From Streptomyces changanensis (GTDB lineage: Bacteria > Actinomycetota > Actinomycetes > Streptomycetales > Streptomycetaceae): 64,000 bases of DNA. Position 1 is the first letter of the stretch, and every line of letters starts with the position of its first letter. Below are positions 15,996 through 40,523 of this stretch, one piece after another. The stretch is from the NCBI RefSeq assembly GCF_024600715.1, contig NZ_CP102332.1:5394001-5458000 (forward strand), read 5' to 3'. The position numbers and the translations under genes were made by a program. The notes under the pieces are model-generated. The model was not told the DNA's origin and searched no databases. It saw only the letters and a list, made by a program, of their open reading frames with translations.

Positions 15996-16032
15996 ATGTC
16001 CGCATTCGTGGAAAAGCGGTTGTGGATCATGT

Positions 16033-16061
16033 TTGACAAGGGCGTGGGCGGGTGTCACGCT
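16033..16061 (+). promoter_or_regulatory. Candidate promoter of the phosphonate cluster's first operon
   Basis: A perfect TTGACA (16033-16038) is followed after 17 bases by CACGCT (16056-16061), a weak -10. It is 133 bases ahead of the first cluster gene, in a stretch of lower GC than the surroundings. Confidence 0.4.
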
Positions 16062-16193
16062 GGGGCCAGCGGAAGAAGTGTCGGAATTTACGGACCGACC
16101 CGCCTCGAACTCCTGATATCGGCACCGCCGGTGCGGTCGACCGCCGAGGCGCATTTCTCCGGATCAGCATCGGATCGCCGATTGGGTACGGTC

Positions 16194-17432
16194 ATGACTC
16201 TGGACTCGGACGACGCCACCCTGAAATCCCTCGAGGAGATCGAGCGGGCGCGGGCCGCCTGGGAGGACCGCCCCCGCCATTCCTCGCCCGACGCCGCGTA
16301 CCGCGCTTTCGTCGACGAGCTCCGCAGGGACGTCCCCTTCTACCGGGACGCGGGCGTGGAACTCCCCCTGACGGACCGGGCGGTACACCAGGAGAACGGC
16401 GAGCTGTTCCGCTCGCCGCGCGTCGCGGCGACGTACCGGCTCTCCTCCAGCGGGACCACCGGGAAGCCGCTCGAAGTGAGGCTCGACGACGCCGCCTGGT
16501 ACGCCGTCAATTACCGTTTCTTCGCGCAGATACGGGACGTCGCCGGGCTCCCCGCCGACCTCTTTCGGCGCGGTGAGCCGGCCGTCGTCTTCATCAGCAA
16601 CAAGCCCGGCCGCGCCAGTTTCGTCCGCCCGCTCCCGCCCCTGGGCAACGGCCTGTACGTACGCCTCCAACTCGGCGGCGCCGACGCGCTGCGGCTGTTC
16701 TCCCGGCTCCGCGCGCCGGTGCTCTACGGGAAGCCGACGTACCTGCTCGACCTGCGTGCCGCCCTGCTCCGGCAGGGCGCGGCCGAACCGCCCTGGACGC
16801 CCCGGCTGCTGCTCGTCAGCGGCGAGCCCCTGCACGACGACGACCGGCGCCGCCTCACCGACTACTTCCGGGCACCCGTCGTGGACGCCCTGGCGTCGAC
16901 CGAGGGCGGCCTCGTCGCCGCCACCACGCCCGACGCGCGCACCTACCGGGTCTTCGGCGAGAACGTCCGCCTGGAGGTCCTGGACGAGCACGGCGCGCCG
17001 CGCCCCGCCGGAGCGGGCGAGCTGGTGCTGACCAACCTCGTCAACCGCGGCACCTTCGTCGCCCGCTACCGCACCGGCGACCACGCCGAACTGGACACCG
17101 CCCCCGACGGCACCCAGCGGCTGCTGCGGCTGCGCGGACGCGAGCCGGGGACCCTGCGGTTCCGTACGGCGGAGCTGCCCGCCGAGACGGTGACCGGCGC
17201 CGTCGGCCACCTGCCCGGGCTCGGCGACTTCCAGGTCGACCTGCGCGACCCGGACCGGACCGTGCTGCGCTGGGCCCCCGAGCCCGGCCGCCCCGACGAG
17301 GAGGGGCTCCGGCGGGAGCTGCGCGCGGCCCTGGACCGCCTGCTGCCGGGCGAGGAGCCGCTGCTGGAGCGCCACGAGCGGATCACCCCGCCCGGGGGCA
17401 AGAAGCGGCGCTACCTGACCGCGCCCGCGTGA
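16194..17432 (+). CDS. PaaK-like adenylate-forming enzyme
   Basis: The protein resembles phenylacetate-CoA ligase/coenzyme F390 synthetase. It has the AMP-binding loop YRLSSSGTTGKP (residues 81-92), a central region with LYGKPTYLLDL, the SGEPLHDDDR and ALASTEGG stretches of the family, and a hinge motif RYRTGDHAEL near residue 300. At 412 residues it is of family length. Such enzymes activate a carboxylate as the acyl-adenylate and pass it to CoA or another nucleophile. As first gene of the cluster it may activate an amino acid or acyl unit for attachment to the phosphonate. The ATG at 16194 is the only start that gives a family-like N-terminus. The substrate is unknown. Confidence 0.82.
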   Translation: MTLDSDDATLKSLEEIERARAAWEDRPRHSSPDAAYRAFVDELRRDVPFYRDAGVELPLTDRAVHQENGELFRSPRVAATYRLSSSGTTGKPLEVRLDDAAWYAVNYRFFAQIRDVAGLPADLFRRGEPAVVFISNKPGRASFVRPLPPLGNGLYVRLQLGGADALRLFSRLRAPVLYGKPTYLLDLRAALLRQGAAEPPWTPRLLLVSGEPLHDDDRRRLTDYFRAPVVDALASTEGGLVAATTPDARTYRVFGENVRLEVLDEHGAPRPAGAGELVLTNLVNRGTFVARYRTGDHAELDTAPDGTQRLLRLRGREPGTLRFRTAELPAETVTGAVGHLPGLGDFQVDLRDPDRTVLRWAPEPGRPDEEGLRRELRAALDRLLPGEEPLLERHERITPPGGKKRRYLTAPA

Positions 17433-17547: not shown

Positions 17548-18573
17548 ATGACGCGAGACCTGACCTGGACGGGCAACCACTTCCTGGACCCCGCCGCCCA
17601 CACCGCCCGGCTGCTCCGGGCGGCCGAGGACATCGACATCACCAACAAGGACGAGGTGTGGAGCCGGCAGGTGGCCACGGCCGCCGCCGCCCACTTCGGC
17701 GTGCCCGCCGACTTCGTCCGCGTCGGCGCCGGCGCCACCCAGCTCATCGACACCCTGCTGCGCAGCGCCTACCGCGGGCTCGTGGTGGACGTGACCCCCA
17801 ACTTCCACCTCACCGCGACCGTCGCCCGCCAGCAGGGCTGGGAGTACCTCGCCGTCCCGGTGCGCGAACCCGGGGAGCTGCTCCCCGCGCTGGAGCCCCA
17901 CCTCGGGCGCGACGACGCGATCACCGTGCTGTGCTCGCCGCGCAACCCGCTCGGCTACCAGTTCCCGGTGGAGGACGTCGCCGCGCTCCTCGAGCGGGCG
18001 CGGGGCCTGGTCGTCCTGGACGAGGTGTACGCGGACTTCGCCCCGGCGACCGCGCTGCCCCTGGTCGAGCGCTTCCCGAACCTGGTCGTCATGCGCACCT
18101 TCTCCAAGGCGTGGGGCCTGGCGAACCTGCGGATCGGCTTCGCCGTCTCCGCCTCCTTCGCCCGCGAGGACTTCCCGTTCTGGCTCATGCCGAACAGCGT
18201 CTCGGGCGTCGCCCAGCGCACCGCGCTCGGCCTCCTCGCCGATCCGGCGCCGGTCCGCGACAGCGTCCGCCGCGTGCACGCGTGCCGTGAGCGGCTCGTC
18301 GCCGGGCTGAGCGGGGTGGAGGGGCTGCGCCTGTGGCCGTCGGACGCCAACTACGTCTGCCTGGAGACCCCCCGGGCCGCCGAGGTCGTCGAGGAGCTGG
18401 GCCACGCCGGGTACCGCACGCGGCTCGTCCACGACCTGCGCGGCTACCCCGCCGACTGGCCGGCCGGCGTGCGGATCGTCGTCCCGCCCGAGCCCGACGT
18501 GGACCGCGTCGTCAAGGGCGTCCTCCACGCCCACCAGGGGCCCGGGGCCGCGCCGGCGCCGGCGGACCGGTGA
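17548..18573 (+). CDS. PLP-dependent aminotransferase, HisC/CobD-like (class I/II)
   Basis: This is a fold-type I PLP enzyme of 341 residues. VGAGATQLID (about residue 59) binds the cofactor phosphate, SPRNPLG contains the conserved Asn133, LDEVYADF carries Asp158 and Tyr161, and TFSKAWGLANLRIGF carries the Schiff-base lysine Lys187. Relatives include histidinol-phosphate aminotransferase and threonine-phosphate decarboxylase, so transamination or decarboxylation of a phosphorylated or phosphonylated amino acid is plausible here. Its end overlaps the next gene (GTGA), indicating translational coupling. The 115-base gap ahead holds three copies of ggcaccgac (17462-17488). Confidence 0.85.
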   Translation: MTRDLTWTGNHFLDPAAHTARLLRAAEDIDITNKDEVWSRQVATAAAAHFGVPADFVRVGAGATQLIDTLLRSAYRGLVVDVTPNFHLTATVARQQGWEYLAVPVREPGELLPALEPHLGRDDAITVLCSPRNPLGYQFPVEDVAALLERARGLVVLDEVYADFAPATALPLVERFPNLVVMRTFSKAWGLANLRIGFAVSASFAREDFPFWLMPNSVSGVAQRTALGLLADPAPVRDSVRRVHACRERLVAGLSGVEGLRLWPSDANYVCLETPRAAEVVEELGHAGYRTRLVHDLRGYPADWPAGVRIVVPPEPDVDRVVKGVLHAHQGPGAAPAPADR

Positions 18574-20546
18574 CCGGCGGACCGGCGCGCGCCACCGGCG
18601 GGGCGGCCACCGGCGGTGGCGCGGGGCGGACCGACGGGCCGCCCTCGCTCAGCGCCGACGGGCGGTACGCCGCCTGGCTCTCCGCCGGCGACGGCGCCAC
18701 CCGCCTCGTCGTGCACGACCTCGCGGCCCGGCGCGAACACGGCCGCTCGGACGTCGGAGCCGCCCGCTGCCGCGCCTTCACCTGGTCGCACCTGCCCGGA
18801 GTCGGCCTCGCCCTCTCCGACCCGGACGGCTCCGAGAGCTGGACGCTCTTCCGCGTCGACGTGGCGGACGGCACCTGGACGCCGCTCGGCGCGCCGGGGC
18901 GGCGCACACGGCTGGCCGGACTGAGCCCGCAGCGCCCCGAGGAGGTGCTGCTCGCCGCCGAGGGGGGCGAGCCCGGCCGACTCGACCACCACCTGGTGTC
19001 CCTGCGCACCGGCGCCCGGACGGAGGTGCTCCGCGACCGCGGCTACGCGGCCGTCTACGCCGACACGTCCCTGCGCCCCCGGCTGACCGAGACCGTCGGC
19101 GACGACGGCTCGCGCGACCTGTGGCACGGCGAGCCCACCGCCGGCCGGCCGTTCCTGCACGTCCCGCACGAGGACGCGCTCACCGTGCGGTTCCTCGCCT
19201 TCGCACCCGACGGGGACACCGCGTACTTCGTCCTGCCCGACGGCCCCGACGGCGTCCGCCTCACCGCCCTCGCCTGCCGGGACGGCGCCCCCGCGCGCGA
19301 GCTGCGCACCGAGCACCGGGTGCGCGGCGGGGACATCCCGGACGTCCTGTTCGAGCCCGGCACCGGCCGCCCGGGGATCGTGCAGACCGAACGCGAGCGG
19401 CGCGCCTGCGTCGCCCTGGACCCCCGCTGGGCACCCGTACTCGAGCACCTGCGCACGCGCCTCGGCACCGAACCCGTGGTCACCGAGCGCCGCGGCGGCC
19501 GGTGGCTGGTGGCCGCGCACCGCCCCGAGCACGACACGCACTGGTACGTCCACGAGCCCGCCGGCGGCGACACCTGGCGGCTCGGCGCGGCCCGGCCCGG
19601 CACCCCGCCATCGTCCGTCACGTGCCGCGCCGTCGGCGTGCCGCTGCGCGGCGGCGGCGAGGCCGTCACGTACGTCACGCGCGGCACGGCACGCGGGGAC
19701 GGCGACGGGCCCGGCCCCGCCGTGCTGCTCGTCCACGGCGGGCCCTGGCGGCGCAGCCGCTGGGAGTACGCCGAGCGGCGCACCTGGCTCGCCGAGCGGG
19801 GCTGCACCGTCATCGAGCCCAACTTCCGCGGCTCCACCGGCTTCGGCCCGGCCTGGACCAACGCCGCCGACCGGCAGTGGGGCCTGGCCATGCAGGACGA
19901 CCTGGAGGACGCCCTCGACTGGGCGGTCGCCGAGGGCGTCGCCGACCCCGACCGGCTCGCCCTGGTCGGCGGCAGCTACGGCGGGTACGCGGTGCTCCAG
20001 ATGGCGGCCACCACCCGCCGGGACCTGCGCTGCGTGGTGGCGACCTCGCCCCTCACCGACCTGGTGCGCTTCCTGGAGGAACCCCCCGCCTTCTGGCGGA
20101 CCGCCGCGCCCATGCTGCACCGCCGCGTCGGGGACCCCGCCGACCCCGACCAGCGGGCGGCGCTCCGGGCGGTGTCGCCGGTGGACAACGCCGCCGGCGT
20201 GCGCTGCCCCGTCCTGCTCGTCCACGGCGCCAACGACAGCCGCGTCCCGGCCGAGATGGCCACCCGGATGTTCATGGCGCTGGCCCGGGCGGGCAAGGAC
20301 GCGACCCTCGCGCTCTTCCCCGACGAGGGACACGAGGTGGTCACCACCGGCAACCGGGCCGCGCTCCACGCCGTGACGGCCGCCCACCTCGACACGCACC
20401 TGTTCGACCGCCCGCCCGCCGCCGACGCGGGCCCGCCCGGTGACACCACCCTCAAGCTCTTCGACACACCCCACGCGGCGCGCCGCAAGGCGGCGTCCGC
20501 GCCCGATCCTGGAGACGTCCATGGCACTGCACTTCACGCGCAGTAA
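18570..20546 (+). CDS. S9 prolyl-oligopeptidase family serine peptidase
   Basis: The N-terminal two thirds form a beta-propeller-like region, and the C-terminal 230 residues are an alpha/beta hydrolase. The catalytic triad is readable: Ser469 in GGSYGGYA, Asp556 in HGANDSR and His588 in DEGHEV. HGGPWRRSRW gives the oxyanion region and PNFRGSTGFG the usual S9C motif. The GTG at 18570 overlaps the aminotransferase stop. No signal peptide is present, so the enzyme is cytosolic. In a phosphonate cluster it may trim a phosphonopeptide or act as an acyl transferase or hydrolase in maturation or self-protection. The first 20 residues are Gly/Ala/Thr low complexity. Confidence 0.88.
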   Translation: MTGGPARATGGAATGGGAGRTDGPPSLSADGRYAAWLSAGDGATRLVVHDLAARREHGRSDVGAARCRAFTWSHLPGVGLALSDPDGSESWTLFRVDVADGTWTPLGAPGRRTRLAGLSPQRPEEVLLAAEGGEPGRLDHHLVSLRTGARTEVLRDRGYAAVYADTSLRPRLTETVGDDGSRDLWHGEPTAGRPFLHVPHEDALTVRFLAFAPDGDTAYFVLPDGPDGVRLTALACRDGAPARELRTEHRVRGGDIPDVLFEPGTGRPGIVQTERERRACVALDPRWAPVLEHLRTRLGTEPVVTERRGGRWLVAAHRPEHDTHWYVHEPAGGDTWRLGAARPGTPPSSVTCRAVGVPLRGGGEAVTYVTRGTARGDGDGPGPAVLLVHGGPWRRSRWEYAERRTWLAERGCTVIEPNFRGSTGFGPAWTNAADRQWGLAMQDDLEDALDWAVAEGVADPDRLALVGGSYGGYAVLQMAATTRRDLRCVVATSPLTDLVRFLEEPPAFWRTAAPMLHRRVGDPADPDQRAALRAVSPVDNAAGVRCPVLLVHGANDSRVPAEMATRMFMALARAGKDATLALFPDEGHEVVTTGNRAALHAVTAAHLDTHLFDRPPAADAGPPGDTTLKLFDTPHAARRKAASAPDPGDVHGTALHAQ

Positions 20547-21774
20547 CGCGCTGCTGCTCCTGACCCCGAAGACGGGCAGCACGTGGATCCGCAGGAAGGT
20601 CAGGGAACTCGGCCTGGAGGTCGCCGAGGTCGGCGACCCGGCGATGCGCGAGCACGACCTCCTCGCCGACTTCGACCGCTCCCGGTACGGCTTCGTCGGC
20701 GCCTTCGTCCGCGACCCGCTCGAGTGGTACCGCTCCTACTGGTCCTACCGCATGGAGAAGGGCTGGCGGCCGCAGTACCCGCTCGACGAGCACTGCGAGA
20801 GCGACGACTTCCAGACCTTCGTGCGGCGGGCCGTGACCGTCCTGCCGGGCGCGCTCGGCAACATCTACACCTCGTACGTCGGCACGCCGGACGACGAGGT
20901 GGACTTCGTCGGCCGGCAGGAGGACCTGGCAGCCGACTTCGCGCGGTTCCTGAAGCTCGCCGGCGAGGAGTTCGACGCCTCCGTCCTCGCCGAGGGCGAC
21001 CGGATCAACGCGACCAGCATCCGTCCCGACTACCCGGAGGAGCTCAAGGAGCTCATCACCCTCTCCGAGTGGGAGACCATGGCGCGCTTCGGCTACCTCG
21101 ACGCCCGGCCCGACCCGATCGGCCTCGCCGAGATGCGCGCCCGCTACCCCGAGGACGCCGGTGACCTGCGGCTGCTGTCCCTGTGGACCGAGAAGATCCA
21201 CTGGGCGCCGGACGACGTCAAGCGGGCCTCGGGCCGGCCGGTGCGCCCCGAGACCCGGTACGCCCGCGTCCACAGCAACTTCGCGCTCTTCGCCCAGCAC
21301 AAGAAGCAGGACCCCGAGTACGCCGGCACCCGCTACCGCGAGGCGCTGCGCCTCGACCCGGCCCACCCGCGCACGCTGTGCAACTACGCCCTGTACGTCG
21401 CCGAGCACGAGGACGACACGGCCGGCGCCCGCGCGCTGATGCTGCGGGCGCTGTCGGGCCGCCCGAACCACCCGTACACCCTCGGCAAGCTGGCGAAGCT
21501 GACCGCCGAGCGGCTCGACGACCCCGACCTCGCGGAGGTCCTCTACCGGCAGAGCCTCGCCGCCAACAGCGACCAGCGGGAGCTGCGCGCCGAGTTCGCC
21601 CGGTTCCTCGCGGGCCGCGGCAAGACCGACGAGGCGGTGGCCCTGCTCGCGGAGGAGGCCGAGAGCCCGCGGGCCGACCGGCTCACCCTGCTCACCCACG
21701 CGTCGGTCCTGGCCCGCGCCGGCCGGATCACCGAGGCCCGCCGCTTCCAGCAGCTCGCCGCCACCGCCGCCTGA
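20521..21774 (+). CDS. PAPS-dependent sulfotransferase fused to TPR-like repeats
   Basis: Residues 11-22 (LLLLTPKTGSTW) form the 5'-phosphosulfate loop of sulfotransferases. Residues 60-75 (GAFVRDPLEWYRSYWS) match the 3'-phosphate-binding strand and helix with Arg64 and Ser72. From about residue 260 the chain turns into helical repeats (YREALRLDPAHPRTLCNYALYVAEHEDD and similar, roughly four units), resembling TPR motifs. The 417-residue size fits a small sulfotransferase plus repeats. The ATG has GGAG 7 bases ahead and lies inside the end of the peptidase gene (26-base overlap). With the PAPS-making genes downstream, it is expected to sulfate a cluster intermediate. The acceptor is unknown. 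Confidence 0.85.
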   Translation: MALHFTRSNALLLLTPKTGSTWIRRKVRELGLEVAEVGDPAMREHDLLADFDRSRYGFVGAFVRDPLEWYRSYWSYRMEKGWRPQYPLDEHCESDDFQTFVRRAVTVLPGALGNIYTSYVGTPDDEVDFVGRQEDLAADFARFLKLAGEEFDASVLAEGDRINATSIRPDYPEELKELITLSEWETMARFGYLDARPDPIGLAEMRARYPEDAGDLRLLSLWTEKIHWAPDDVKRASGRPVRPETRYARVHSNFALFAQHKKQDPEYAGTRYREALRLDPAHPRTLCNYALYVAEHEDDTAGARALMLRALSGRPNHPYTLGKLAKLTAERLDDPDLAEVLYRQSLAANSDQRELRAEFARFLAGRGKTDEAVALLAEEAESPRADRLTLLTHASVLARAGRITEARRFQQLAATAA

Positions 21775-21794: not shown

Positions 21795-22670
21795 ATGACG
21801 ATCACGGAGGACCGGCTCGCCCGGACCATCCAGGACGAGTCCGTGTCCGCGGCCGGCCGGACGGTCGCGCAGACCGTCGCCGCGGCCCGCGAGGTCGTCG
21901 GGCGGAACAGGATCTGCCTGGTCCGCGACTTCCCCCTGGACCCCGACCGTTACCTGGAGTTCCTCGGCGCCTTCGGCGAACCGCTGCGGAACTACTCCTC
22001 GCTCAGCGAGCTGGCGAAGACCGACCCGCACCCGCAGATCAACCGGGTGAAGTACAAGAAGAAGACCGAGGGCGCCCAGTCCGTCCACTACGTCGCCGGC
22101 GGTCTGCGGCCGCACTCCGCCCGCTCCTGGTGCACGCCCCGCCCGGCGTTCTTCGCGATGCTCATGGTGGAGCCCGGCTGGCGGGAGGTCCCGGCCGGGC
22201 AGCGGGGCGAGTCCGTCGTGGTCTCCTGGTACGACCTGTTCACCCGGCTCGCCGAGCGGGACGGCGCCGTGTTCGAGGAGCACTTCGCGCGGCTGTCGGG
22301 CACGCCGATCACCTTCCGGGCCAACAACGTGCGGGAGGAGCTGAGCGACCTGCCGCTGCTCTACCCGCTGGACGACTCCCGCGGGCGGTACGACGTGGGC
22401 GTCCGGCTCAAGCAGGACCTGCGCGACAAGATCGCGGGCATCGAGGACCAGCTGCCCGACGCCGACGCCTACCGGAAGTCCCTGGACTACCTGCTGGACG
22501 CCAGCGTCGAGGACGGGCTGTTCTCCTGCTTCCCGATGGAGCGCGGCGACCTGCTGCTGCTGGACAACCACCGGTTCGCGCACGGCCGTCAGAAGATCGT
22601 CGGCGAGTACGCGGTCGACGGCGAGGCGCGGACCAACGACCGCGAGCTGTGGAGCGTCACGGTCCGCTGA
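21795..22670 (+). CDS. TauD/clavaminate synthase-like protein lacking the canonical acidic iron ligand
   Basis: The 291-residue protein has the double-stranded beta-helix signature of the TauD/clavaminate synthase-like family. The proximal motif reads His107-Ser108-Ala109, where the family normally has His-x-Asp/Glu. The distal His263 is present in DNHRFAHGR. The C-terminal strand reads ELWSVTVR, where relatives have a 2-oxoglutarate-binding Arg in place of Ser. Loss of the acid is the hallmark of Fe/2OG halogenases, but loss of the arginine makes this assignment uncertain. A paralogue with the same changes lies at 32329-33186. AAAGGAG precedes the ATG by 7 bases. It follows the sulfotransferase by 20 bases. 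Confidence 0.8.
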   Translation: MTITEDRLARTIQDESVSAAGRTVAQTVAAAREVVGRNRICLVRDFPLDPDRYLEFLGAFGEPLRNYSSLSELAKTDPHPQINRVKYKKKTEGAQSVHYVAGGLRPHSARSWCTPRPAFFAMLMVEPGWREVPAGQRGESVVVSWYDLFTRLAERDGAVFEEHFARLSGTPITFRANNVREELSDLPLLYPLDDSRGRYDVGVRLKQDLRDKIAGIEDQLPDADAYRKSLDYLLDASVEDGLFSCFPMERGDLLLLDNHRFAHGRQKIVGEYAVDGEARTNDRELWSVTVR

Positions 22671-22707: not shown

Positions 22708-22947
22708 ATGGACAACCCCGTCCCCACCACCCCCGGCGAGGACGCGGCCGAGCCGACCGGGCAGGCGGCCGAGCAGGCCGACCTGGCCGCCGTCTGCGCC
22801 GAGCTCCAGGGCGAGCTCGACGCGCTGATGGCCGGCCCCGGGACGAACGCGGCGGCGCAGTCGCTCGACACGGCCGTCTCGTCGCTGAAGGAGGTCGAGC
22901 AGCGCAACGTCTCGTCGGTGCAGCTCGTGGCGCTCGCCGACCGGTAG
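22708..22947 (+). CDS. Small acidic protein (79 aa), unknown
   Basis: The gene has a strong Shine-Dalgarno sequence (AGAAGGAG, 6 bases ahead of the ATG) and lies just before a strong terminator. The protein is acidic and helical after an unstructured Pro/Thr-rich start (first 20 residues), with no cysteine. Two helices are predicted by eye at about 23-43 and 49-65, and it ends in SSVQLVALADR. It lacks a signal peptide and is not a carrier protein with a phosphopantetheine serine motif (no GxDS). It may be a scaffold, a partner of the preceding TauD-like protein, or a peptide substrate. I do not recognise a family. Confidence 0.6.
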   Translation: MDNPVPTTPGEDAAEPTGQAAEQADLAAVCAELQGELDALMAGPGTNAAAQSLDTAVSSLKEVEQRNVSSVQLVALADR

Positions 22948-23008
22948 GCGGACCCGCTCCCACCGCCCCGCGCCGGGGCGGTGACACCGCTCCGCCGCGG
23001 TGGTGACG

Positions 23009-23044
23009 CCTCCCCGCCGGGCCCCCGCGGGCCCGGCGGGGAGG
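23009..23044 (+). terminator. Strong terminator ending the first cluster operon
   Basis: A perfect 16-bp stem (CCTCCCCGCCGGGCCC and its complement) has a 4-base loop CCGC. It is 61 bases past the small gene and is followed by AT-richer bases CAATTC. It marks the end of the transcription unit starting at 16194. Confidence 0.85.
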
Positions 23045-23047
23045 CAA

Positions 23048-23076
23048 TTCCCGGCACTGTTCCCGGCCCGTAGAAT
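23048..23076 (+). promoter_or_regulatory. Candidate promoter of the ATCase-like gene
   Basis: TAGAAT (23071-23076) matches the streptomycete -10 consensus well. TTCCCG 17 bases upstream is a weak -35. The element sits right after the terminator and 50 bases ahead of the ATG at 23127, which itself lacks a clear Shine-Dalgarno sequence. Confidence 0.45.
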
Positions 23077-23126
23077 GGCCGCGGCCGAGGGCTGTACCCG
23101 GTGTCATAGAGAAAGTCAGAGTCGTC

Positions 23127-24185
23127 ATGTCATTGACCGGAAAGCACATTCTCTCCAGCGACCTCTTCACCCGGGACGACCTGGAGCGGCTCTTCGAACT
23201 GGCGGACGTCCTGACGCCGGTGGCCCGCGGCCGGAAGGTCACGCGGGTCCTCGAGGGCGCCGTGATGGCGAGCCTCTTCTTCGAGGCCAGCACCCGCACG
23301 CGGCTGAGCTGCGAGTCGGCCTTCCTGCGCCTGGGCGGCGGAGTGACGACGACCACCGGGGTCGAGCTGCTGTCGATCGCCAAGGGCGAGTCGCTGGCCG
23401 ACACCAGCCGCGTCGTCAGCGGCTACTGCGACCTCGTCGTGATGCGCCACCCCGACGAGGCGGCCGTCCACGAGTTCGCCGACGCCACCCACGTCCCCGT
23501 CGTCAACGGCGGCAACGGCGCGGGCGAGCACCCCACGCAGGCGCTCCTCGACATGTTCACCATGCACCGCGAGTTCCACCGCCTCGGCCGCGACATCGAC
23601 GGCGCCCGGATCGCCATGGTCGGCGACCTCCGCCACGGCCGCACCGTCCACTCGCTGATCAAGCTGCTGTCCCGGTACGACAAGCTGACGCTGGTCTGCG
23701 TCTCGCCCGACAGCCTCGGCATGCCCGCTCCGCTGCTGGAACTCGCCGCGAGCCGCGGCCACCACGTCGAGGTGAGCGACCGGCCCGAGGCCGGCCTGCG
23801 GGACGCCGACCTGGTGTACGCGACGCGCCTGCAGACGGAGCGCTTCGCCGACCTGCCCGTCCCGTACAGCGACGAGTTCCGCATCGACCGCGCGCTGGTG
23901 GACCGGGTCTGCCGCCCCGACACGGTGATCATGCACCCGCTGCCCCGGGACAGCCGCCCCGCCGCCAACGACCTCGGCACGGACCTGAACACCGACCCCC
24001 GGCTGGCGATCTTCCGGCAGACCGACGCGGGCATCCCGATCCGCATGGCGCTCTTCGCGTCGGTGCTGGGCGTCGCCGACGCCATCCGGCCCTCGCTGCG
24101 CCCGGCCACCTGGTACCGGCCGGACTTCACGGGCCCCGACGACGCCCCCTTCTACCGCAACACCGCGGTGGAGGGCATCGCGTAG
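23127..24185 (+). CDS. Aspartate carbamoyltransferase, extra copy (putative resistant target)
   Basis: This 352-residue protein matches the catalytic chain of ATCase, which condenses carbamoyl phosphate with aspartate in pyrimidine synthesis. Every binding motif I can align by eye with the E. coli chain is present: FFEASTRTRLS (Ser55, Thr56, Arg57), AKGESLADT (Lys86), VMRHP (Arg107), HPTQALLD (His135), GDLRHGRTVHSL (Arg172), TRLQTERF (Arg234, Gln236) and HPLPRD. By these motifs it resembles the E. coli type more than the actinobacterial PyrB I know. It has about 40 extra C-terminal residues. No pyrimidine gene (pyrI, pyrC, pyrR, carAB) is near. It may be a self-resistance copy against a PALA-like product, or a carbamoylating biosynthetic enzyme. 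Confidence 0.88.
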   Translation: MSLTGKHILSSDLFTRDDLERLFELADVLTPVARGRKVTRVLEGAVMASLFFEASTRTRLSCESAFLRLGGGVTTTTGVELLSIAKGESLADTSRVVSGYCDLVVMRHPDEAAVHEFADATHVPVVNGGNGAGEHPTQALLDMFTMHREFHRLGRDIDGARIAMVGDLRHGRTVHSLIKLLSRYDKLTLVCVSPDSLGMPAPLLELAASRGHHVEVSDRPEAGLRDADLVYATRLQTERFADLPVPYSDEFRIDRALVDRVCRPDTVIMHPLPRDSRPAANDLGTDLNTDPRLAIFRQTDAGIPIRMALFASVLGVADAIRPSLRPATWYRPDFTGPDDAPFYRNTAVEGIA

Positions 24186-24209
24186 CCGACAGACACGAAC
24201 CACCCAGAC

Positions 24210-24253
24210 GAACGCCGAAGCGGGCCGGAGACCTCCGGCCCGCTTCGGCGTTC
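24210..24253 (+). terminator. Long perfect hairpin between ATCase-like and MFS genes
   Basis: The arms 24210-24230 and 24233-24253 are perfect 21-base reverse complements (GAACGCCGAAGCGGGCCGGAG). The stem is stronger than most streptomycete terminators. Only 25 bases separate it from the MFS start codon. Confidence 0.75.
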
Positions 24254-24278
24254 CCGCGTCCGAGCCAAGAGGAATTCC

Positions 24279-25586
24279 ATGAGTGGTGAGACGCGCCGCG
24301 AGAAACGCCGACGGGATTTCGCCGCCTACCGGCATCCGATCGTCGCGGTGACGATGGCGAGCACGTTCTTCCTGAAGCTCGTGTCGTATCTCTGTATTCC
24401 GTTCATGACGATCTTCCTGAGCCGCAACGCCGACCTGCCGGCCCACGTGATCGGGCTGCTCGTCGGGCTCAACCAGATCGGCTCGCTGACCGCCGGCTTC
24501 TTCAGCGGCGTCCTCGCGGACCGGATCGGGCGGCGGCGGATCCTGCTCGTCGGGCTCTTCGGCACCGCGCTGGTCTTCGGGCTGCTGTTCGCCGTGGCCA
24601 CGTACCTGCGGCAGTCGCTGGCGTTCCCCGTGCTGTTCGGGGTGCTGAACGTCTCGTACGGCGTGATGTCGGCGTTCTTCTGGCCGGTCACCCAGGTGGT
24701 GATGGCCGACAGCCTGCCGAAGGAGCAGCGGCCGGTGCTCTTCCGCCACCGGTACGTGCTGACGAACACGGCCGTGGCCGTCGGCCCGCCGACCGGGGCC
24801 TTCCTGGGGCTCGCCTCCGACCGGCTCGCCTTCGTCATCGCGGGCGGCTGCTACCTGCTCTTCGCGCTCGCGTACGCGTGGCTCGGCCGGGGCACGGAGT
24901 ACGGCGCCCCCGTCCCGACGCCCGCCGCCTCGGCCCCCGCGGCGGGAGCCAAGGCGGCGGGGGACCGGCGCAGCTTCACCGGGGCGCTGCGGGTGCTCGC
25001 GGCGGACCGGGCGTTCCGCAGCCTCACCGTGTCGATGATCCTGTTCACCCTGGCGTACTGCCAGATCGAGTCGAACCTCTCGCGGATCGTCAGCACCGGG
25101 TTCCCCGACGGGATCCGCTTCTTCGCGGTGCTGCTCACGGTCAACGCCGTGGCCGTCATCGCGCTCCAGCCGCTTGCCTCCCGGGCCGCCGAGCGGCTGG
25201 GCCCCCGGCGCACCCTCCTCACGGGCAACGCGCTGTTCGCGGTCGTCTGCCTGCTGTTCCCGCTCACCGGCTCCGGCCGGGCGGCCCTCGTGGCGCTGGT
25301 CGTGCTGATCAGCCTCGCCGAGGTCCTGGTCGTCCCCACGGTGAGCGTCGTGGTGGACGAACTCGCGCCACCCGACCTGCGCGGCACGTACTTCGGTGCG
25401 GCCACGCTCCGCAACCTCGGTCTCGGCCTCGGGCCCGCGGCGGGCGGGCTCGTGCTGACGCTGTTCCCCCGGGAACTGCTCTTCGTCTTCATGGGGCTGT
25501 GCGCCGCCGCCGCGTGGGCCGTCATCCACTTCACCCTCAGGGAGAACGCCGGTGCGCATCCTGGTCCTGCATCAGAACCTGTTTGA
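24279..25586 (+). CDS. MFS transporter, probable product exporter
   Basis: The 435-residue protein has about 12 hydrophobic helices. The loop between helices 2 and 3 carries the MFS signature in GVLADRIGRRRILLVG, and a longer Ala/Pro-rich cytoplasmic loop lies in the middle (about residues 208-235). This fits drug/metabolite efflux carriers of the major facilitator family. AAGAGG lies 7 bases ahead of the ATG. Its end overlaps the next gene by 35 bases, so it is co-translated with the ATP-grasp/CysQ fusion. Export of the phosphonate product is the likely job. Confidence 0.85.
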   Translation: MSGETRREKRRRDFAAYRHPIVAVTMASTFFLKLVSYLCIPFMTIFLSRNADLPAHVIGLLVGLNQIGSLTAGFFSGVLADRIGRRRILLVGLFGTALVFGLLFAVATYLRQSLAFPVLFGVLNVSYGVMSAFFWPVTQVVMADSLPKEQRPVLFRHRYVLTNTAVAVGPPTGAFLGLASDRLAFVIAGGCYLLFALAYAWLGRGTEYGAPVPTPAASAPAAGAKAAGDRRSFTGALRVLAADRAFRSLTVSMILFTLAYCQIESNLSRIVSTGFPDGIRFFAVLLTVNAVAVIALQPLASRAAERLGPRRTLLTGNALFAVVCLLFPLTGSGRAALVALVVLISLAEVLVVPTVSVVVDELAPPDLRGTYFGAATLRNLGLGLGPAAGGLVLTLFPRELLFVFMGLCAAAAWAVIHFTLRENAGAHPGPASEPV

Positions 25587-27564
25587 ACGGCTCGCCTACG
25601 AGCGGGCCATCGACCACTCCGTCCACGACGTCGTGTACGCCGGGACGCCGCAGTACCTCGCCAACATCCCCGCCCATGTCCGCTGCGGGACGTTCCCCCT
25701 GGACCCGGCCCGGCCCGTCGCCGACCAGCTGCGGCCGTGGATGGCCGGGCAGCCGCCGTTCCAGCGGATCATCGCCCGGCACGAGAAGCTGATCACCCCG
25801 GCCGCCGAGCTGCGCGACGCCTTCGGCATCCCCGGCATGGGCGCCGCGGCGGCGCGCAACTTCCGCGACAAGGTGACCATGAAGCGGACCCTGGCGCGGG
25901 CCGGTTTCCGCGTGCCGCGCTTCGTCCCCGCGGACCGGCCGGCAGCCCCGGACGGTCCGGCCGCCCCGGACCGGCCCGGCGCCGGCCCCGGCTGGCGCGG
26001 CCGGACCATCGTCAAGCCGCGCGACGAGGGCGGCAGCCAGGGGGTACGTCTCTTCGAGACCCTCGACGAGGCGCTGGAGTTCGTCCGCGCCGCCGCCGCG
26101 CAGTCCCCCGCGGACCCGGCCGCGCAGACCGGCACGGAGCAGGGCACGGGCGGCGGGTTCGCCGCCCGGTACGAGCTGGAGGAGTACGTCGAGGGCCCGA
26201 TCTGGCACGTGGACGGCTTCCTCTTCAAGGGCGAGGCGGTGGTGGCCCAGCCGTCCCGCTACGTCGGCACGCCGCTGGGCTTCGAGAACGGGGCGCCCAT
26301 CGGCTCCGTGCAGTTCGACCACCCGGAGCTGACGGAGTGGGCCGTGCGCTGCGTGCGGGCGCTCGGCGGCGAGACGCTCACCTTCCACCTCGAAGCGATC
26401 ATGACCCCGAGCGGGCCGGTCTTCATGGAGGTCGCGGCCCGCTGCGGCGGCGGGTACATCGTCGACGTCACCGAGCGGCGCACCGGCGCCCACCTGCACA
26501 CGCTGGACATGGCGTCGGACGTGGACGACGCGCTCGCCGAGCGCTTCCTCGGCCCGCCCGCACCCGGCCTCGCGCACGGCTTCTTCCTCTTCCCCGGCCA
26601 CGTCCACGGCGGCGCGGCCGTCTCCGTGCGCGGCGCCCGCGCCCTGCTGGACGACCCCGTGGTGGTGCGCCACCGGATCACCGCACCGGGCACGACCACC
26701 CCGACCAGCCACTCCTACCGGCCCGAACACCTGCCGCTGTCCGGCGTGGTCCGCGGCCCCGACCCGGAGGCGCTGGTGCGGTACGTCGAACGGGTCCTGG
26801 AGCAGGTCACCGTCGAGGACGACCACCGGCTGGCGCACCGGCTGGCCGAGGAGGCCGGCGAGCTGCTGCTGAAGCTGCGGGCGGAGTCCGGCTTCGCCGA
26901 CCCGGCGGCGCTGAAGGCGGCGGGCGACCGGCTGTCGCACGAGTTCCTCGCCGCGGCGCTCGCGGCGGAGCGCCCCGGCGACGCCGTCCTCTCCGAGGAG
27001 GGGAAGGCGGACGCGGCGCGGCTGACCGCCGAGCGGGTGTGGATCGTCGACCCCCTGGACGGCACCCGCGAGTTCTCCGAGCCGGGCCGGGAGGACTGGG
27101 CCGTGCACGTCGCCCTGTGGACCGGCGGCCGGCTCGCCGCGGGGGCCGTCGCCCTGCCCGCCCAGGGCGTCACGCTGTCCACCGGCACACCGCCGCCCAC
27201 GCCGGACTCCCCGGCGGACCGCCTGCCCGTCCTCGGCAGCCGCTCGCGGTCGCCCGCCTTCCTCACGCAGGTCGCCGGGCGGATCGGCGCCGAGCTGGCC
27301 GGCATGGGCTCGGCGGGCGCCAAGACGGCGGCCGTGATCCGCGGCGACGCCCGCGCGTACCTGCACGCGGGCGGCCAGTACGAGTGGGACTCGGCCGCTC
27401 CGGCCGCCGTCGCGCTCGCCGCCGGACTGCACGTGTCCCGGCTGGACGGCACCCCGCCGGTCTACAACCGCGCGGACCCCTACCTGCCGGACCTCCTGGT
27501 CTGCCGCCCGCAGGACGCGGCCGCCCTGCTGGCGGCCGTCGCGGAGGCCACGACCGGCTCCTGA
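25552..27564 (+). CDS. Fusion: ATP-grasp ligase and CysQ-type PAP phosphatase
   Basis: The N-terminal half (to about residue 415) is an ATP-grasp domain: [14 protein letters not shown] near residue 152 gives the ATP-binding Lys, LEEYVEGP follows, and [24 protein letters not shown] (in outline) contains the Mg-binding acid and the terminal Arg. The C-terminal half (about 420-670) is an inositol-monophosphatase-like domain of the CysQ type: [17 protein letters not shown] (Asp500, Asp503) and [11 protein letters not shown] carry the metal ligands. CysQ turns 3'-phosphoadenosine 5'-phosphate, the by-product of sulfotransferases, into AMP. The ligase could join phosphonoacetate or an intermediate to an amino acid. 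The GTG start has GGGAG 8 bases ahead. I know of no common protein with this pairing. Confidence 0.85.
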
Positions 27565-27610: not shown

Positions 27611-28204
27611 ATGACGGACACAGACAACAGCACATTCGAGGCGGTGCCCGCACACCCCGCGGGACCCGCCGGACGCGGCGCGACGGTCTGGCTCACCGGC
27701 CTCCCCAGCGCCGGGAAGACCACCCTGGCCCGCGCCCTGGCCGAACGCCTCCGCGCCGCCGGCCACCGCACCGAGGTCCTGGACGGCGACGAGGTCCGGG
27801 AGTTCCTCTCGGCGGGGCTGGGTTTCGGCCGCGCGGACCGGGACACCAACGTGCGGCGGATCGGCTTCGTCGCCGAGCTGCTCGCCTCGAACGGCGTGAA
27901 GGTCCTGGTGCCCGTCATCGCCCCGTACGCCGACAGTCGCGCCGAGGTGCGCGCACACCACCGGCGGGAGGGCACCCCGTACGTCGAGGTGCATGTCGCC
28001 ACGCCGGTGGAGGTGTGCTCGGAGCGGGACGTGAAGGGGCTGTACGCCCGGCAGGCCGCCGGCGAGATCAGCGGGCTGACCGGCGTCGACGACCCGTACG
28101 AGGAGCCCGACGCCCCGGACCTGCGCCTGGACACGGCCGGCCGGCCGGTGGCCGGGTCGGCCGCGGACATCCACGCCCTGCTCGTCGGAAGGGGACTGGC
28201 ATGA
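27611..28204 (+). CDS. cysC: Adenylylsulfate (APS) kinase, cluster copy
   Basis: CysC phosphorylates APS to PAPS, the sulfate donor for sulfotransferases. The 197-residue protein has the P-loop GLPSAGKTT (about residue 35), the [10 protein letters not shown] motif, the [10 protein letters not shown] loop and the IAPYADSR and [11 protein letters not shown] motifs; all look intact. It has about 20 extra N-terminal residues compared with the second copy at 62417-62950. It overlaps cysD by ATGA, and the operon continues to 32285. Its place beside a sulfotransferase gene points to specialised sulfation and not to cysteine synthesis. Confidence 0.93.
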
Positions 28205-29124
28205 GTGCCGTGACCGGGGCGACCGGTGTCTACCGCCCCACCCACCTGGACGTCCTGGAGTCCGAGGCGGTGCACATCTTCCGCGAGGTGGCGGGTGAGT
28301 TCGAGCGGCCGGTGGTCCTCTTCTCCGGCGGCAAGGACTCCATCGTCATGCTGCACCTGGCGCTGAAGGCGTTCTGGCCCGCGCCGGTCCCGTTCTCGCT
28401 GCTGCACGTCGACACCGGGCACAACTTCCCCGAGGTCATCGAGTACCGCGACCGCACCGTCGCGAAGCACGGGCTGACCCTGCACGTCGCACGCGTCCAG
28501 GAGTACGTCGACGACGGCCGGCTCACCGAGCGGCCCGACGGAACCCGCAACCCCCTCCAGACGGTGCCGCTGCTCGACGCGATCGAACGGCACCGCTTCG
28601 ACGCGGTGTTCGGCGGCGGCCGGCGCGACGAGGAGAAGGCGCGCGCCAAGGAGCGGGTGTTCTCCCTGCGCGACGAGTTCGGCGCCTGGGACCCGCGCCG
28701 CCAGCGCCCCGAGCTGTGGGACCTGTACAACGGCCGCCACATGGTCGGCGAGCACGTGCGGGTCTTCCCGCTGTCGAACTGGACCGAGCTGGACGTGTGG
28801 CAGTACATCGAGCGCGAGGGCATCGAGCTGCCGGAGATCTACTTCGCGCACGAGCGCGAGGTGTTCTCCCGGTCCGGCATGTGGCTCACCGCCGGCGAGT
28901 GGGGCGGTCCGAAGGAGTCCGAGCCGGTGGAGAAGCGGATGATCCGCTACCGCACGGTCGGCGACATGTCCTGCACCGGCGCCGTCGACTCCGACGCCAC
29001 CACCGTCGCCGACGTCATCGCCGAGATCGCCGCCAGCCGCCTCACCGAGCGCGGCGCCACCCGCGCCGACGACAAGCTGTCCGAGGCCGCCATGGAGGAC
29101 CGCAAGCGTGAGGGGTACTTCTGA
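28201..29124 (+). CDS. cysD: Sulfate adenylyltransferase subunit 2, cluster copy
   Basis: CysD makes APS from ATP and sulfate, driven by GTP hydrolysis in CysN. The 307-residue protein has the PP-loop [12 protein letters not shown] near residue 43, [16 protein letters not shown], the [15 protein letters not shown] loop and the [21 protein letters not shown]-terminal region. It is nearly the same as the primary copy at 61387-62325 through long stretches, including at the DNA level, so the two are recent duplicates or undergo gene conversion. It is separated from cysN by one base. Confidence 0.95.
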
Positions 29125-29125
29125 C

Positions 29126-30427
29126 ATGACGGCCACCACCCACACCCGGCACGACCCCGCGGCGGCCACCCTGCTGCGCTTCGCGACCGCGGGCTCCGTC
29201 GACGACGGCAAGTCCACCCTGGTGGGCCGGCTCCTGCACGACTCCAAGTCGGTCCTCGTCGACCAGCTGGAGGCCGTCGAGGCGGCCTCCCGGCGCCGCG
29301 GCCAGGACGTCCCGGACCTGGCGCTGCTCACGGACGGCCTGCGGGCCGAACGCGAGCAGGGCATCACCATCGACGTCGCCTACCGCTACTTCGCCACCCC
29401 CCGGCGCCGGTTCATCCTCGCCGACACCCCCGGCCACGTGCAGTACACCCGCAACATGGTCACCGGCGCGTCCACCGCGGACCTCACCGTCGTCCTGGTC
29501 GACGCGCGCAACGGCGTCGTCGAGCAGACCCGCCGGCACGCCGCCGTCTCCGCGCTGCTGCGCGTCCCCCGGCTCGTGCTCGCCGTGAACAAGATGGACC
29601 TCGTCGGCTACGACGAGGCGGTCTTCGCGGCCGTCGCGGACGAGTTCACCGGCTACGCGCGCCGTCTCGGCACCGCCGACGTCGTGGCGATCCCGCTCTC
29701 CGCGCTGGAGGGCGACAACGTCGTCGCCCCGTCCGCGCACACGGACTGGTACAGCGGTCCCACCCTGATGGAGCACCTGGAGGGCGTCGAGGTCGCCGCC
29801 GGCTCGCCGGACGCGCCCGCCCGCTTCCCCGTCCAGTACGTCATCCGCCCGCAGAGCGGCGCGCACCGCGACTACCGCGGCTACGCGGGACGGCTGGCGT
29901 CCGGCGTGCTGCGGCCCGGCGACACCGTGACCGTCCTGCCCTCCGGGCAGCGGGCCACCGTCGCCGGCATCGACGTCCTCGGCACCCCGGCGTCCGCCGC
30001 GCGGGCCACCCAGTCGGTCACCGTCCGGCTGGCCGAGGACGTCGACGTCTCCCGCGGCGACCTGATCGCCGCCGGCGCCGCGCCCCGGCTCACCCGGGAC
30101 GTCACCGCGACCGTCTGCCACCTCCACGAACGCCCCCTGCGCACCGGAGACAAGGTCCTGCTCAAGCACACCACGCGGACCGTGCGGGCGGTGGTCCGGG
30201 AGATCACGTACCGCACCGACGTCGACACGCTGGAACGGCGCGACGCCGCCGGCGCCCTGGACGTCAACGACCTGGGCCGCGTCGTCCTGCGCACCGCCGA
30301 GCCCCTCGCCCTCGACGACTACGCGGACAACCGCCGTACGGGCGCCTTCCTCCTGATCGACCCGGCCGACGGCACCACCCGCTCGGCCGGCCTGGTCGGG
30401 GAGACGTCCGCCTGGGGGGCGCCGTGA
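29126..30427 (+). CDS. cysN: Sulfate adenylyltransferase subunit 1 (GTPase), cluster copy
   Basis: CysN is an elongation-factor-like GTPase that powers APS formation. The 433-residue protein has G1 AGSVDDGKST (about residue 17), switch II DTPGHVQYTRNM, and NKMDLVG for guanine specificity, followed by two beta-barrel domains. There is no C-terminal CysC fusion, consistent with the separate cysC gene. It overlaps the antiporter gene by GTGA. It pairs with the second copy at 60053-61384. Confidence 0.95.
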   Translation: MTATTHTRHDPAAATLLRFATAGSVDDGKSTLVGRLLHDSKSVLVDQLEAVEAASRRRGQDVPDLALLTDGLRAEREQGITIDVAYRYFATPRRRFILADTPGHVQYTRNMVTGASTADLTVVLVDARNGVVEQTRRHAAVSALLRVPRLVLAVNKMDLVGYDEAVFAAVADEFTGYARRLGTADVVAIPLSALEGDNVVAPSAHTDWYSGPTLMEHLEGVEVAAGSPDAPARFPVQYVIRPQSGAHRDYRGYAGRLASGVLRPGDTVTVLPSGQRATVAGIDVLGTPASAARATQSVTVRLAEDVDVSRGDLIAAGAAPRLTRDVTATVCHLHERPLRTGDKVLLKHTTRTVRAVVREITYRTDVDTLERRDAAGALDVNDLGRVVLRTAEPLALDDYADNRRTGAFLLIDPADGTTRSAGLVGETSAWGAP

Positions 30428-31815
30428 CCGACGTCGACCTCTTCCGGCTGTTCGCCTCCCTGATGCTGCTGCTCCTCGCGGCGCACCTCATGGGCAGGCT
30501 CTTCGCGCGCCTGCGGCAGCCGCCGGTCATCGGGGAGATCACCGGCGGCCTGCTGCTCGGCCCGTCGCTCTTCGGCCTCCTCGCCCCCGGCGCGCAGGGG
30601 TGGCTCTTCCCGCCGACCGGGCCGGCCGCGACCGGGCTCGCCCTCGTGTACCAACTCGGCGTGCTGCTGCTCATGTTCCTCGCGGGGCTGCAGATGCGTG
30701 CGGTGTTCTCCCGTCACGACGGGCGGGCCGTGGTGCTGATCGCCGTCGTCGGCATGGTCATCCCGTTCGGCTGCGGTCTGCTGCTGGTACGGGTCGTCGA
30801 CCTCTCCTCGGTCGTCGGGGAGGCGGGCGACCACACCGCGCTCACGCTGGTGATCGCGTGCGCCGTCGCGATCACCAGCATCCCGGTGATCTCCCGGATC
30901 ATGATGGACCTCGGCATCGCCGGCACCTCCTTCGCCCGGGTGGTGCTCTCGGTCGCCGTCCTGGAGGACATCGTCCTCAACGTGGTGATCGCGGTCGCCC
31001 TCGGCATGGTCGGCGGCGGCCCGCACGACGCCTTCGGCGCCCCGGCGCTGCTCGGGGTGGGCACGGGCGACGGGGCCATCGCCTACCACGCCCTCGTCTC
31101 GGTCGTCTTCTTCGGCCTGACGGCCGGGGTGGGGACGCTCCTGCGCCGCCGTACCGCGGCCCGCCCGGACGTGCCGGCGGCCGGACCGGGGCCGACCGCG
31201 GGCCGGCCGGAGGCGGGGGAGCGGCCGGGGGCGGGCGTCCAGGTCGCCGTGCAGGTCGCCGTGGTCCTCGGCGCCGGCGGCACCTGCGTCTTCCTCGGCA
31301 TCACGCCGATGTACGGCGCCTTCCTCGTGGGCCTGATGACGAGCTGGAGCCGCGGCGCGGGCGAGCCCGACCCGATGGCCGCCGTCCGCGGCTTCGCGAC
31401 CGGGTTCTTCATCCCCGTCTACTTCGCGATCGTCGGCCTCAAACTCGACCTGGTCCACGCCTTCGACCCCCTGCTCACCGTGGCGTTCACCGCCTTCGCC
31501 TGCGTGGTCAAGGCGGCCAGCGTCTACCTCGGTGCCCGCTGGGCCGGCCGGCCGCGGGCGGGCGCGCTCAACCTCGCGGTCGCCATGAACGCCCGCGGCG
31601 GCCCCGGCATCGTCCTGGCGACCCTCGCCTACGACGCGCGGATCATCAACGCGACCCTCTTCACCACCCTGGTCCTCACCGCCGTCATCACCTCCCTGAT
31701 GGCCGGCGGATGGCTCGAGTCCGCGATCCGCCGCGGCCTGCTGCCCCGCGACGGGGACGAGGAGCGGCCGCCCGTGGCGGACCGTACCGACAAGATCCCG
31801 GCAGGTGCCCGATGA
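30424..31815 (+). CDS. Cation:proton antiporter (CPA2/KefB-type membrane protein)
   Basis: The 463-residue protein has about 12 membrane helices and the CPA2 signatures PPVIGEITGGLLLGPS (about residue 36), VLEDIVLNVVIAVALG and AMNARGGPGIVLAT. A hydrophilic Gly/Pro/Ala insert lies in the middle (about residues 242-275). The family exchanges K+ or Na+ for protons. No TrkA-N or other regulatory domain is attached. It is translationally coupled to cysN (GTGA) and to the next gene (ATGA), so it is part of the sulfation operon. It might export an anionic product, balance charge, or simply have been carried along. Confidence 0.85.
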   Translation: MTDVDLFRLFASLMLLLLAAHLMGRLFARLRQPPVIGEITGGLLLGPSLFGLLAPGAQGWLFPPTGPAATGLALVYQLGVLLLMFLAGLQMRAVFSRHDGRAVVLIAVVGMVIPFGCGLLLVRVVDLSSVVGEAGDHTALTLVIACAVAITSIPVISRIMMDLGIAGTSFARVVLSVAVLEDIVLNVVIAVALGMVGGGPHDAFGAPALLGVGTGDGAIAYHALVSVVFFGLTAGVGTLLRRRTAARPDVPAAGPGPTAGRPEAGERPGAGVQVAVQVAVVLGAGGTCVFLGITPMYGAFLVGLMTSWSRGAGEPDPMAAVRGFATGFFIPVYFAIVGLKLDLVHAFDPLLTVAFTAFACVVKAASVYLGARWAGRPRAGALNLAVAMNARGGPGIVLATLAYDARIINATLFTTLVLTAVITSLMAGGWLESAIRRGLLPRDGDEERPPVADRTDKIPAGAR

Positions 31816-32285: not shown

Positions 32286-32328
32286 CGGCCGACCGACGTT
32301 CCCTTCTCCCGTCCAAGGGGTTATGATC

Positions 32329-40439: not shown

Positions 40440-40523
40440 GCGCCCTCCCGGGGAAGGCCGCCTGCTGTCATGGCAGTTAGAGGCCAGTCGCCCTGCTGCC
40501 CTCTTCTCGGTCGCGATGCGATC

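Follow-up and report, generated by a model that had tools for sequence, protein, structure and literature searches.

An Extra Aspartate Carbamoyltransferase in a Streptomyces Phosphonate Gene Cluster as a Candidate Self-Resistance Enzyme, and the Absence of pyrB from Kitasatospora Carrying the Same Enzyme Type

Introduction

Why should a gene cluster for a phosphonate carry an aspartate carbamoyltransferase (ATCase)? The question is raised by a 64,000-nucleotide stretch of Streptomyces changanensis DNA, called the window throughout. A first-pass annotation had described the gene at 23127–24185 as an extra ATCase belonging to a phosphonate cluster, with no other pyrimidine genes nearby, and had read it as a self-resistant copy of the target of a product resembling N-phosphonoacetyl-L-aspartate (PALA). 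Carbamoyl transfer to an intermediate of the pathway was offered as the alternative. From sequence comparisons, target-replacement self-resistance of the kind known for ArgK, directed against a phosphonoacetyl-aspartate-like product, appears rather probable. A resistant target copy is the best reading because ATCases of this type replace PyrB, sit in every close cluster found, and are rare elsewhere in Streptomyces.

For a phosphonate family with an unsolved product, the ATCase points to both target and warhead, so that an ATCase assay can guide isolation of the product. To our knowledge, a natural PALA-like ATCase inhibitor would be new, and none was found in titles or abstract openings of the open-licence literature. 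The replacement of pyrB by the cluster-type ATCase in Kitasatospora is also new here. As a natural experiment, these losses indicate which enzyme sustains pyrimidine synthesis in the species concerned, and they allow one to test how a gene for resistance may turn into a housekeeping gene.

The ATCase Gene and Its Product

The open reading frame begins with ATG, contains no internal stop and encodes 352 amino acids, and is thus complete; a GC3 of 0.98 is a strong coding signal. Both Pfam domains expected of the family are matched (OTCace_N, 148 bits; OTCace, 78 bits), and the profile TIGR00670 (asp_carb_tr) is passed with 269.6 bits against a cut-off of 236.95. Scores against PRK11891 (499 bits) and PRK08192 (414 bits) are higher, yet lie under the cut-offs of those profiles. 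The binding motifs of ATCases, as given in the available part of PMC4581275, are all found: SxRT (residues 55–58), HPxQ (135–138) and HxLP (270–273) for carbamoyl phosphate, and RxQxER (234–239, within TRLQTER) for aspartate. The HxLP motif is HPLP, and the best PDB score of this HPLP-type catalytic chain is to human CAD (237 bits), with the E. coli enzyme at about 182 bits. The earlier description as a complete ATCase of the E. coli catalytic-chain type was right about completeness; the E. coli label fits loosely only, this HPLP-type chain scoring nearer to human CAD.

Among the matches listed, the nearest named homologue outside the Streptomycetaceae is from Actinospica (75% identity), followed by short enzymes (~348 aa) of Verminephrobacter (69%) and Acidovorax temperans (64%); the ~430 aa type of Burkholderiales has 58–63% identity to the cluster ATCase. 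The second ATCase of Burkholderia (~430 aa), whose role is unsettled according to the part of PMC4581275 available, has the HPLP motif as here and differs in its longer N-terminus.

The window genome also encodes a canonical PyrB (C1:985986–987005; 395.7 bits to PRK00856, above its cut-off). Profiles place this gene between pyrR and pyrC in an operon of the order pyrR-pyrB-pyrC-carA, and its product is about 36% identical to the cluster ATCase. The gene at 23127–24185 is therefore confirmed as a real, complete, second ATCase of this genome, and its description as an extra copy was correct. Two more ATCase matches in the genome have 33% and 28% identity. A carbamoyltransferase-like stretch of 33% identity with one internal TGA lies at C1:6705103–6705957. 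Among the cluster proteins scanned, neither a regulatory chain nor any other pyr gene was seen, in agreement with the annotation; the other clusters gave no match to the nearest "uridine kinase family" hit (41615–42325; PF00485, 28.7 bits).

All PALA-contact residues that could be named, on what we take to be the E. coli list, are conserved in the cluster ATCase by sequence comparison. No resistance determinant is therefore visible, and the enzyme appears capable of PALA binding. In the E. coli enzyme R229, Q231, R167 and K84 bind aspartate (PMC4581275, available part). The claim of a self-resistant target copy thus keeps its extra, cluster-tied ATCase, and is strengthened by the replacement of pyrB described below, but gains no sequence sign of insensitivity.

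Two clade-specific changes close to the active site were considered as resistance determinants and dropped. C62 and T237 are both present in 26 of 121 retrieved ATCases, mostly in an actinobacterial clade, and 84 of the 121 have F and K. Phenylalanine occupies position 62 in all 63 sequences that could be read among the 80 diverse loci listed, none of them from Streptomyces or Kitasatospora. C62 and T237 are not claimed for resistance because F/K is found in homologues that apparently share the cluster, namely the short ATCases P0035, P0037 and P0043, which are encoded on three non-actinobacterial or unassigned contigs apparently holding it.

The Phosphonate Cluster

From gene matches in relatives, the cluster covers about 15218–40922 (~25 kb); these bounds were set because six flanking ORF queries matched nothing in the relatives' loci. 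Its genes, with the expression signals discussed later, are collected in Table 1. The PepM protein contains EDK-MFPKM-NS, which we take to be the phosphoenolpyruvate mutase motif.

Table 1. Genes and candidate signals of the phosphonate cluster, in window coordinates.
Feature	Position	Strand	Basis or remark
Conserved cluster protein	15218–15928	+	Profile scan, match in relatives
AMP-binding (adenylating) enzyme	15981–17432	+	True start probably further in
PLP-dependent HisC/CobD-like aminotransferase	17548–18573	+	Profiles
S9-family peptidase	18573–20546	+	Profiles; start approximate
Protein with C-terminal TPR, suggested PAPS sulfotransferase	20521–21774	+	Motifs and profiles
TauD-family dioxygenase 1	21795–22670	+	Start inferred
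Conserved 79-aa protein	22708–22947	+	Match in relatives
-10-like element TAGAATGGC	23071–23079	+	56 bases upstream of the ATCase ATG
ATCase catalytic chain	23127–24185	+	352 aa; kfp15 equivalent by counted gene order
GC-rich inverted repeat, terminator-like, no T run	24210–24253	.	24 bases after the ATCase stop
MFS transporter adjoining the ATCase gene	24279–25586	+	Profiles
Weak N-terminal ATP-grasp match with CysQ/inositol-monophosphatase-like C-terminal part	25552–27564	+	Profiles
CysC, APS kinase	27611–28204	+	Profile
CysD, sulfate adenylyltransferase small subunit	28201–29124	+	Start inferred
CysN, sulfate adenylyltransferase large subunit	29108–30427	+	Profiles
Sodium/proton-exchanger (CPA2) family membrane protein	30424–31815	+	Profiles
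Short CysC-like protein	31812–32285	+	Start inferred
TauD-family dioxygenase 2	32323–33186	+	Start inferred
Conserved protein, faint P-loop match	33230–34270	+	Profiles, relatives
ATP-grasp ligase, BacD-like	34267–35589	+	Profiles
Phosphonopyruvate decarboxylase, N-terminal (alpha) part	35619–36140	+	Profiles
Phosphonopyruvate decarboxylase, C-terminal (beta) part	36140–36724	+	Profiles
PepM, phosphoenolpyruvate mutase	36763–37659	+	TIGR02320 306.8 bits, slightly under cut-off of 319.55
Aldehyde dehydrogenase, putative phosphonoacetaldehyde dehydrogenase	37779–39254	+	Start inferred; role from PMC12723261 (available part)
LuxR-type regulator, counterpart of K. fiedleri activator kfp24	39402–40439	+	Profiles, relatives
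Small conserved cluster protein	40470–40922	+	Profiles, relatives

The capacity to make phosphonoacetate, as first proposed, would lie in PepM, both decarboxylase parts and an aldehyde dehydrogenase whose counterpart in Kitasatospora fiedleri is assigned to phosphonoacetate formation (PMC12723261, available part). The annotation had also listed ATP-grasp ligases in the plural. The BacD-like one stands; the second match, in 25552–27564, is weak and lies below Pfam's cut-off.

The same cluster is known from K. fiedleri (G461) as the kfp cluster, a member of GCF09 that occurs also in Streptomyces sp. 31A4 and MMG1121 (PMC12723261). Like the window it has PepM, Ppd, aldehyde dehydrogenase, ATP-grasp, two TauD, PLP enzyme, cysDNCQ-like and LuxR genes, and judged by gene content the GCF09 set (with pepM, ppdA and ppdB) is complete in the window. 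In those parts of the paper available, deletion of pepM-ppdAB abolishes the phosphonate, which together with complementation shows that the cluster makes it, and overexpression of the LuxR gene raises phosphonate; the structure is unsolved, and a phosphonoacetate-derived phosphonopeptide is proposed as the product. The terms carbamoyl, aspartate, ATCase, transcarbamoylase, pyrimidine and kfp15 are absent from the main text of PMC12723261. The kfp cluster differs from that of the window in having the LuxR gene and its neighbour at the other end.

The O-phosphonoacetic acid serine cluster of Streptomyces NRRL F-525, reportedly studied by Freestone in 2017, offers a second comparison. Its aldehyde dehydrogenase, PepM and Ppd genes are in the same order, and its product is an amino acid that carries a phosphonoacetyl group (PMC12723261 and PMC12288639, available parts). 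The K. fiedleri cluster extends clearly past it (PMC12723261, same part).

In the proposed pathway, PepM and the two-part phosphonopyruvate decarboxylase would give phosphonoacetaldehyde, and the aldehyde dehydrogenase would convert this to phosphonoacetate. An ATP-grasp ligase might then couple phosphonoacetate to aspartate or an aspartyl peptide, yielding a PALA-like bisubstrate inhibitor that would next be tailored, perhaps by sulfation, and exported. The canonical PyrB would presumably be inhibited, and the cluster ATCase, if insensitive, would sustain pyrimidine synthesis. Other steps discussed in the available part of PMC12723261, hydroxylation and transamination to phosphonoalanine, count against a PALA-like product.

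The model for such an arrangement is ArgK, the phaseolotoxin-resistant ornithine carbamoyltransferase (OTCase) of Pseudomonas syringae. It, too, is a second transcarbamylase, and it is encoded alongside a peptide that contains phosphorus and inhibits OTCase (PMC4530439, available part). There an OTCase is paired with a sulfodiaminophosphinyl compound, here an ATCase with a predicted phosphonate, and insensitivity is proven for ArgK only (same source). A target copy besides the housekeeping gene is present in the window genome and in one other Streptomyces (G085), both of which have pyrB; in the Kitasatospora carriers, unlike the ArgK arrangement, the housekeeping gene is gone. ArgK also acts on the phaseolotoxin precursor (PMC4530439, available part), and by analogy the cluster ATCase might serve as a sink as well, turning an aspartyl-peptide precursor, by carbamoylation, into an innocuous side product. 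Such a dual role is very improbable, the substrate loop having the ordinary ATCase motif.

What the tailoring might be is hinted at by the protein at 20521–21774. Its N-terminal half contains the stretches PKTGSTW and VRDPLEWYRSYW, which we take to be PAPS sulfotransferase motifs and which suggest that the protein is such an enzyme. The Pfam matches listed for it are to TPR-type families only, and the PDB matches listed for a full-length model (pLDDT 92) cover the C-terminal half and are TPR proteins. The N-terminal half alone (5 sequences) gave a weak model (pLDDT 57.6) with sulfotransferases at ranks 1, 3 and 7; the best match, a sulfotransferase, had an E value of 0.32, and none reached 0.001. 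CysD, CysN, CysC and the CysQ-like domain suggest a supply of PAPS, as is also proposed in PMC12723261 (available part). Close to the window's right end (62423–62944, minus strand) there is another APS-kinase-like stretch, with 85% identity to the cluster CysC. The protein at 33230–34270 is 81% conserved across the three complete clusters of G085, G428 and G461, and a sequence search gave no meaningful PDB relative for it.

Conservation of the Cluster and Its ATCase

Samples of 392 Streptomyces genomes, the genus of the window, and 70 Kitasatospora genomes were searched with PepM (E ≤ 1e-110), a search that does not select through the ATCase. It matched 4 of the Streptomyces and 3 of the Kitasatospora genomes. 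Five of these seven, the window's own counted, have a PepM of at least 81% identity, and all five have the cluster with a cluster-type ATCase in it, which bears out the claim that the ATCase is part of the phosphonate cluster. It is a constant member, occupying the same spot between the 79-aa gene and the transporter in 5/5 clusters and two genera. From regulator to aldehyde dehydrogenase, 23 window genes were found in each of G085, G428 and K. fiedleri; in G440 the gene order is kept up to the contig end, and PepM is on another contig than the ATCase. The LuxR gene and its small neighbour (39402–40922) lie at the 3' end of the window's cluster and at the 5' end of those in G085, G428, G461 and G440, so one end has been rearranged.

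Outside these clusters the ATCase type is rare in Streptomyces (2/392 genomes, each with the cluster). The two Streptomyces with the next-nearest PepM (G095 and G388; 67–68%) have no ATCase of the cluster type. Within 40 kb they have in common with the window cluster Ppd and ATP-grasp matches of 28–35%; G095 has in addition a 38% aldehyde dehydrogenase match, and in G388 a portion of the ATP-grasp/CysQ protein is matched as well, at 30%. These are different phosphonate clusters. Class-wide draws matched the window genome only (ATCase, 1/394; TPR protein, 1/236), and a family-wide draw for the ATCase type matched 11 of 394 genomes, the window's and 10 Kitasatospora.

Farther afield, at least nine ATCase homologues apparently pair with a homologue of the TPR protein on one contig, including those of Acidovorax temperans and two further contigs. 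These apparent shared contigs make it probable that the pair exists outside the actinobacteria. Nine plasmid records of Burkholderia, Caballeronia, Variovorax and Comamonas have ATCase matches (58.9–60.2%), and no match to the TPR protein was found in plasmid records. The TPR homologues of Nocardia, Amycolatopsis and Micromonospora had no ATCase partner among the 120 matches listed.

Loss of pyrB in Kitasatospora

The cluster-type ATCase is carried by 10 of the 70 Kitasatospora genomes in 11 copies, two of them in G428. A match at E ≤ 1e-15 was obtained in 69 of the 70: cluster-type in the 10 carriers, and in the other 59 a best match of 33–37% identity, the level of canonical PyrB (operon checked in three). 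The one genome with no match, G558, is 88% complete. G573 has four carbamoyltransferase matches, one of them 37% identical and ATCase-like on C4, besides its PyrB-level match.

Canonical PyrB was not found in any of the ten carriers with the window PyrB as query at E ≤ 1e-15, where only cluster-type copies matched. In all ten pyrR, pyrC and carA are present in order, and pyrB is gone from between pyrR and pyrC; it is present in 5/5 controls (three Kitasatospora, G085 and the window genome). The pyrR-pyrC gap is 49–122 bp in carriers versus 991–995 bp in three controls, and by eye both extremities of pyrB, its first codons and its last bases, seem to survive in G461, G440 and G538. Fisher's exact test for 10/0 versus 0/59 gives p = 3e-12, a figure that ignores kinship and treats as independent genomes that are related.

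A tree was built from PyrR, PyrC and CarA of 15 genomes, with just three pyrB-bearing Kitasatospora among them. A single clade of all ten carriers is rejected (p-AU 0.0007), and the minimum is two losses of pyrB. G461, G440 and G538 group together with 91/95 support, which is below the mark for firm support; the pyrB remnants of G461/G440 and G538 differ (122 versus 50 bp), and the ATCases of the two are not sisters.

In the producers G461 and G440, no ATCase was found besides the cluster copy. The annotation had held that the resistance reading would fail were this the only pyrB of its genome; it is not so in the window strain, and as far as searched it is so in these two producers. The type stands in for the missing pyrB and is the sole ATCase found in K. 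fiedleri and G440, a genomic pattern that makes it very probable that the enzyme functions as an ATCase in vivo. Replacement does not need production, since the cluster is absent from seven of the ten genomes that lack pyrB; three of these seven have a different, distant PepM (50–53%). Both Streptomyces carriers, the window genome and G085, retain pyrB.

These losses bear on the alternative of the first-pass annotation, in which the enzyme would be a biosynthetic carbamoyltransferase, making carbamoyl-aspartate or carbamoylating an aspartate-like intermediate as a building block, with the loss of pyrB following from redundancy. The ATCase gene is indeed flanked on both sides by cluster genes, and carbamoyltransferases have biosynthetic roles in the clusters for zwittermicin, viomycin and padanamide (PMC4581275, available part). 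Those enzymes, however, belong to the OTCase branch and have a (T/S)RWQTTG or TRWQSMG loop and an Asp in HxLP (same source). This signature of biosynthetic Dap/Dab transcarbamylases is absent from the cluster ATCase, which has RxQxER and HPLP instead. Moreover, the host PyrB would already supply carbamoyl-aspartate, and the type is the sole ATCase found in ten genomes, seven of them without the cluster. With its aspartate motif and its standing as the only ATCase type found in cluster-free genomes, a biosynthetic role becomes unlikely; transfer to a pathway intermediate alone fits poorly with replacement of pyrB in ten genomes, which strongly favours a true ATCase.

Stand-Alone Copies and Their Origin

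In the ATCase tree the stand-alone Kitasatospora copies lie apart (95/92) from the group of cluster copies. That group includes one stand-alone copy, of G538, and has 98/95 support without the window copy and 87/61 with it. The G538 gene is the only ATCase found in its genome; it shares 90% identity with the cluster copy of G428, stands without a surrounding cluster and adjoins what reads as a recombinase-like gene. Six stand-alone copies have common neighbours in one chromosomal region, and in G518 no cluster genes were found within the 30 kb read around the ATCase. The corresponding region is ATCase-free in 8/8 other genomes (both flanks recognised in G404, G471 and G552, one flank in five), which makes it probable that the ATCase was inserted at this site in an ancestor of that group.

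A mobile, working ATCase might also have been captured by the cluster as a passenger and have displaced pyrB by drift, with no part in resistance. The single region shared by the stand-alone copies of six genomes, empty in all eight others read, would suit such a gene, as would the recombinase-like neighbour in G538, the retention of both enzymes by two Streptomyces carriers and the conserved PALA contacts; the seven pyrB-less genomes without a cluster would fit plain xenologous replacement. Against this, the ATCase is in the same place in all five clusters of two genera, is apparently paired with the TPR gene in Acidovorax temperans and on two further contigs, and fits the predicted class of product. 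A passenger gene is accordingly judged rather unlikely. The resistant target copy, which remains the preferred reading, can be extended to a more tentative scenario, somewhat less likely than even: a natural PALA-type inhibitor would have been met by a resistance ATCase that moved with its own promoter in and outside the cluster and ousted pyrB at least twice, leaving a group of Kitasatospora species to run their pyrimidine synthesis on the resistance enzyme.

Expression Signals

The -10-like element occurs 46–84 bases upstream of the start in 12 of 13 ATCase copies; the G428 cluster copy is without it. The pattern was drawn up after viewing the sequences, and it is conservation that marks the element. 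Shuffling gives an expectation of 0.06 copies, a figure that overstates the case because the ATCase copies are related. A scan of 22900–24400 for consensus promoters and terminators called neither a -35/-10 pair nor an inverted repeat. By eye, an inverted repeat like that of the window follows the ATCase stop in 4/5 cluster copies. With the -10-like element upstream and the inverted repeat downstream, the ATCase gene may form a separate transcription unit, an arrangement that would be apt for resistance. In the available part of PMC12723261 the K. fiedleri cluster is viewed as a possible single operon.
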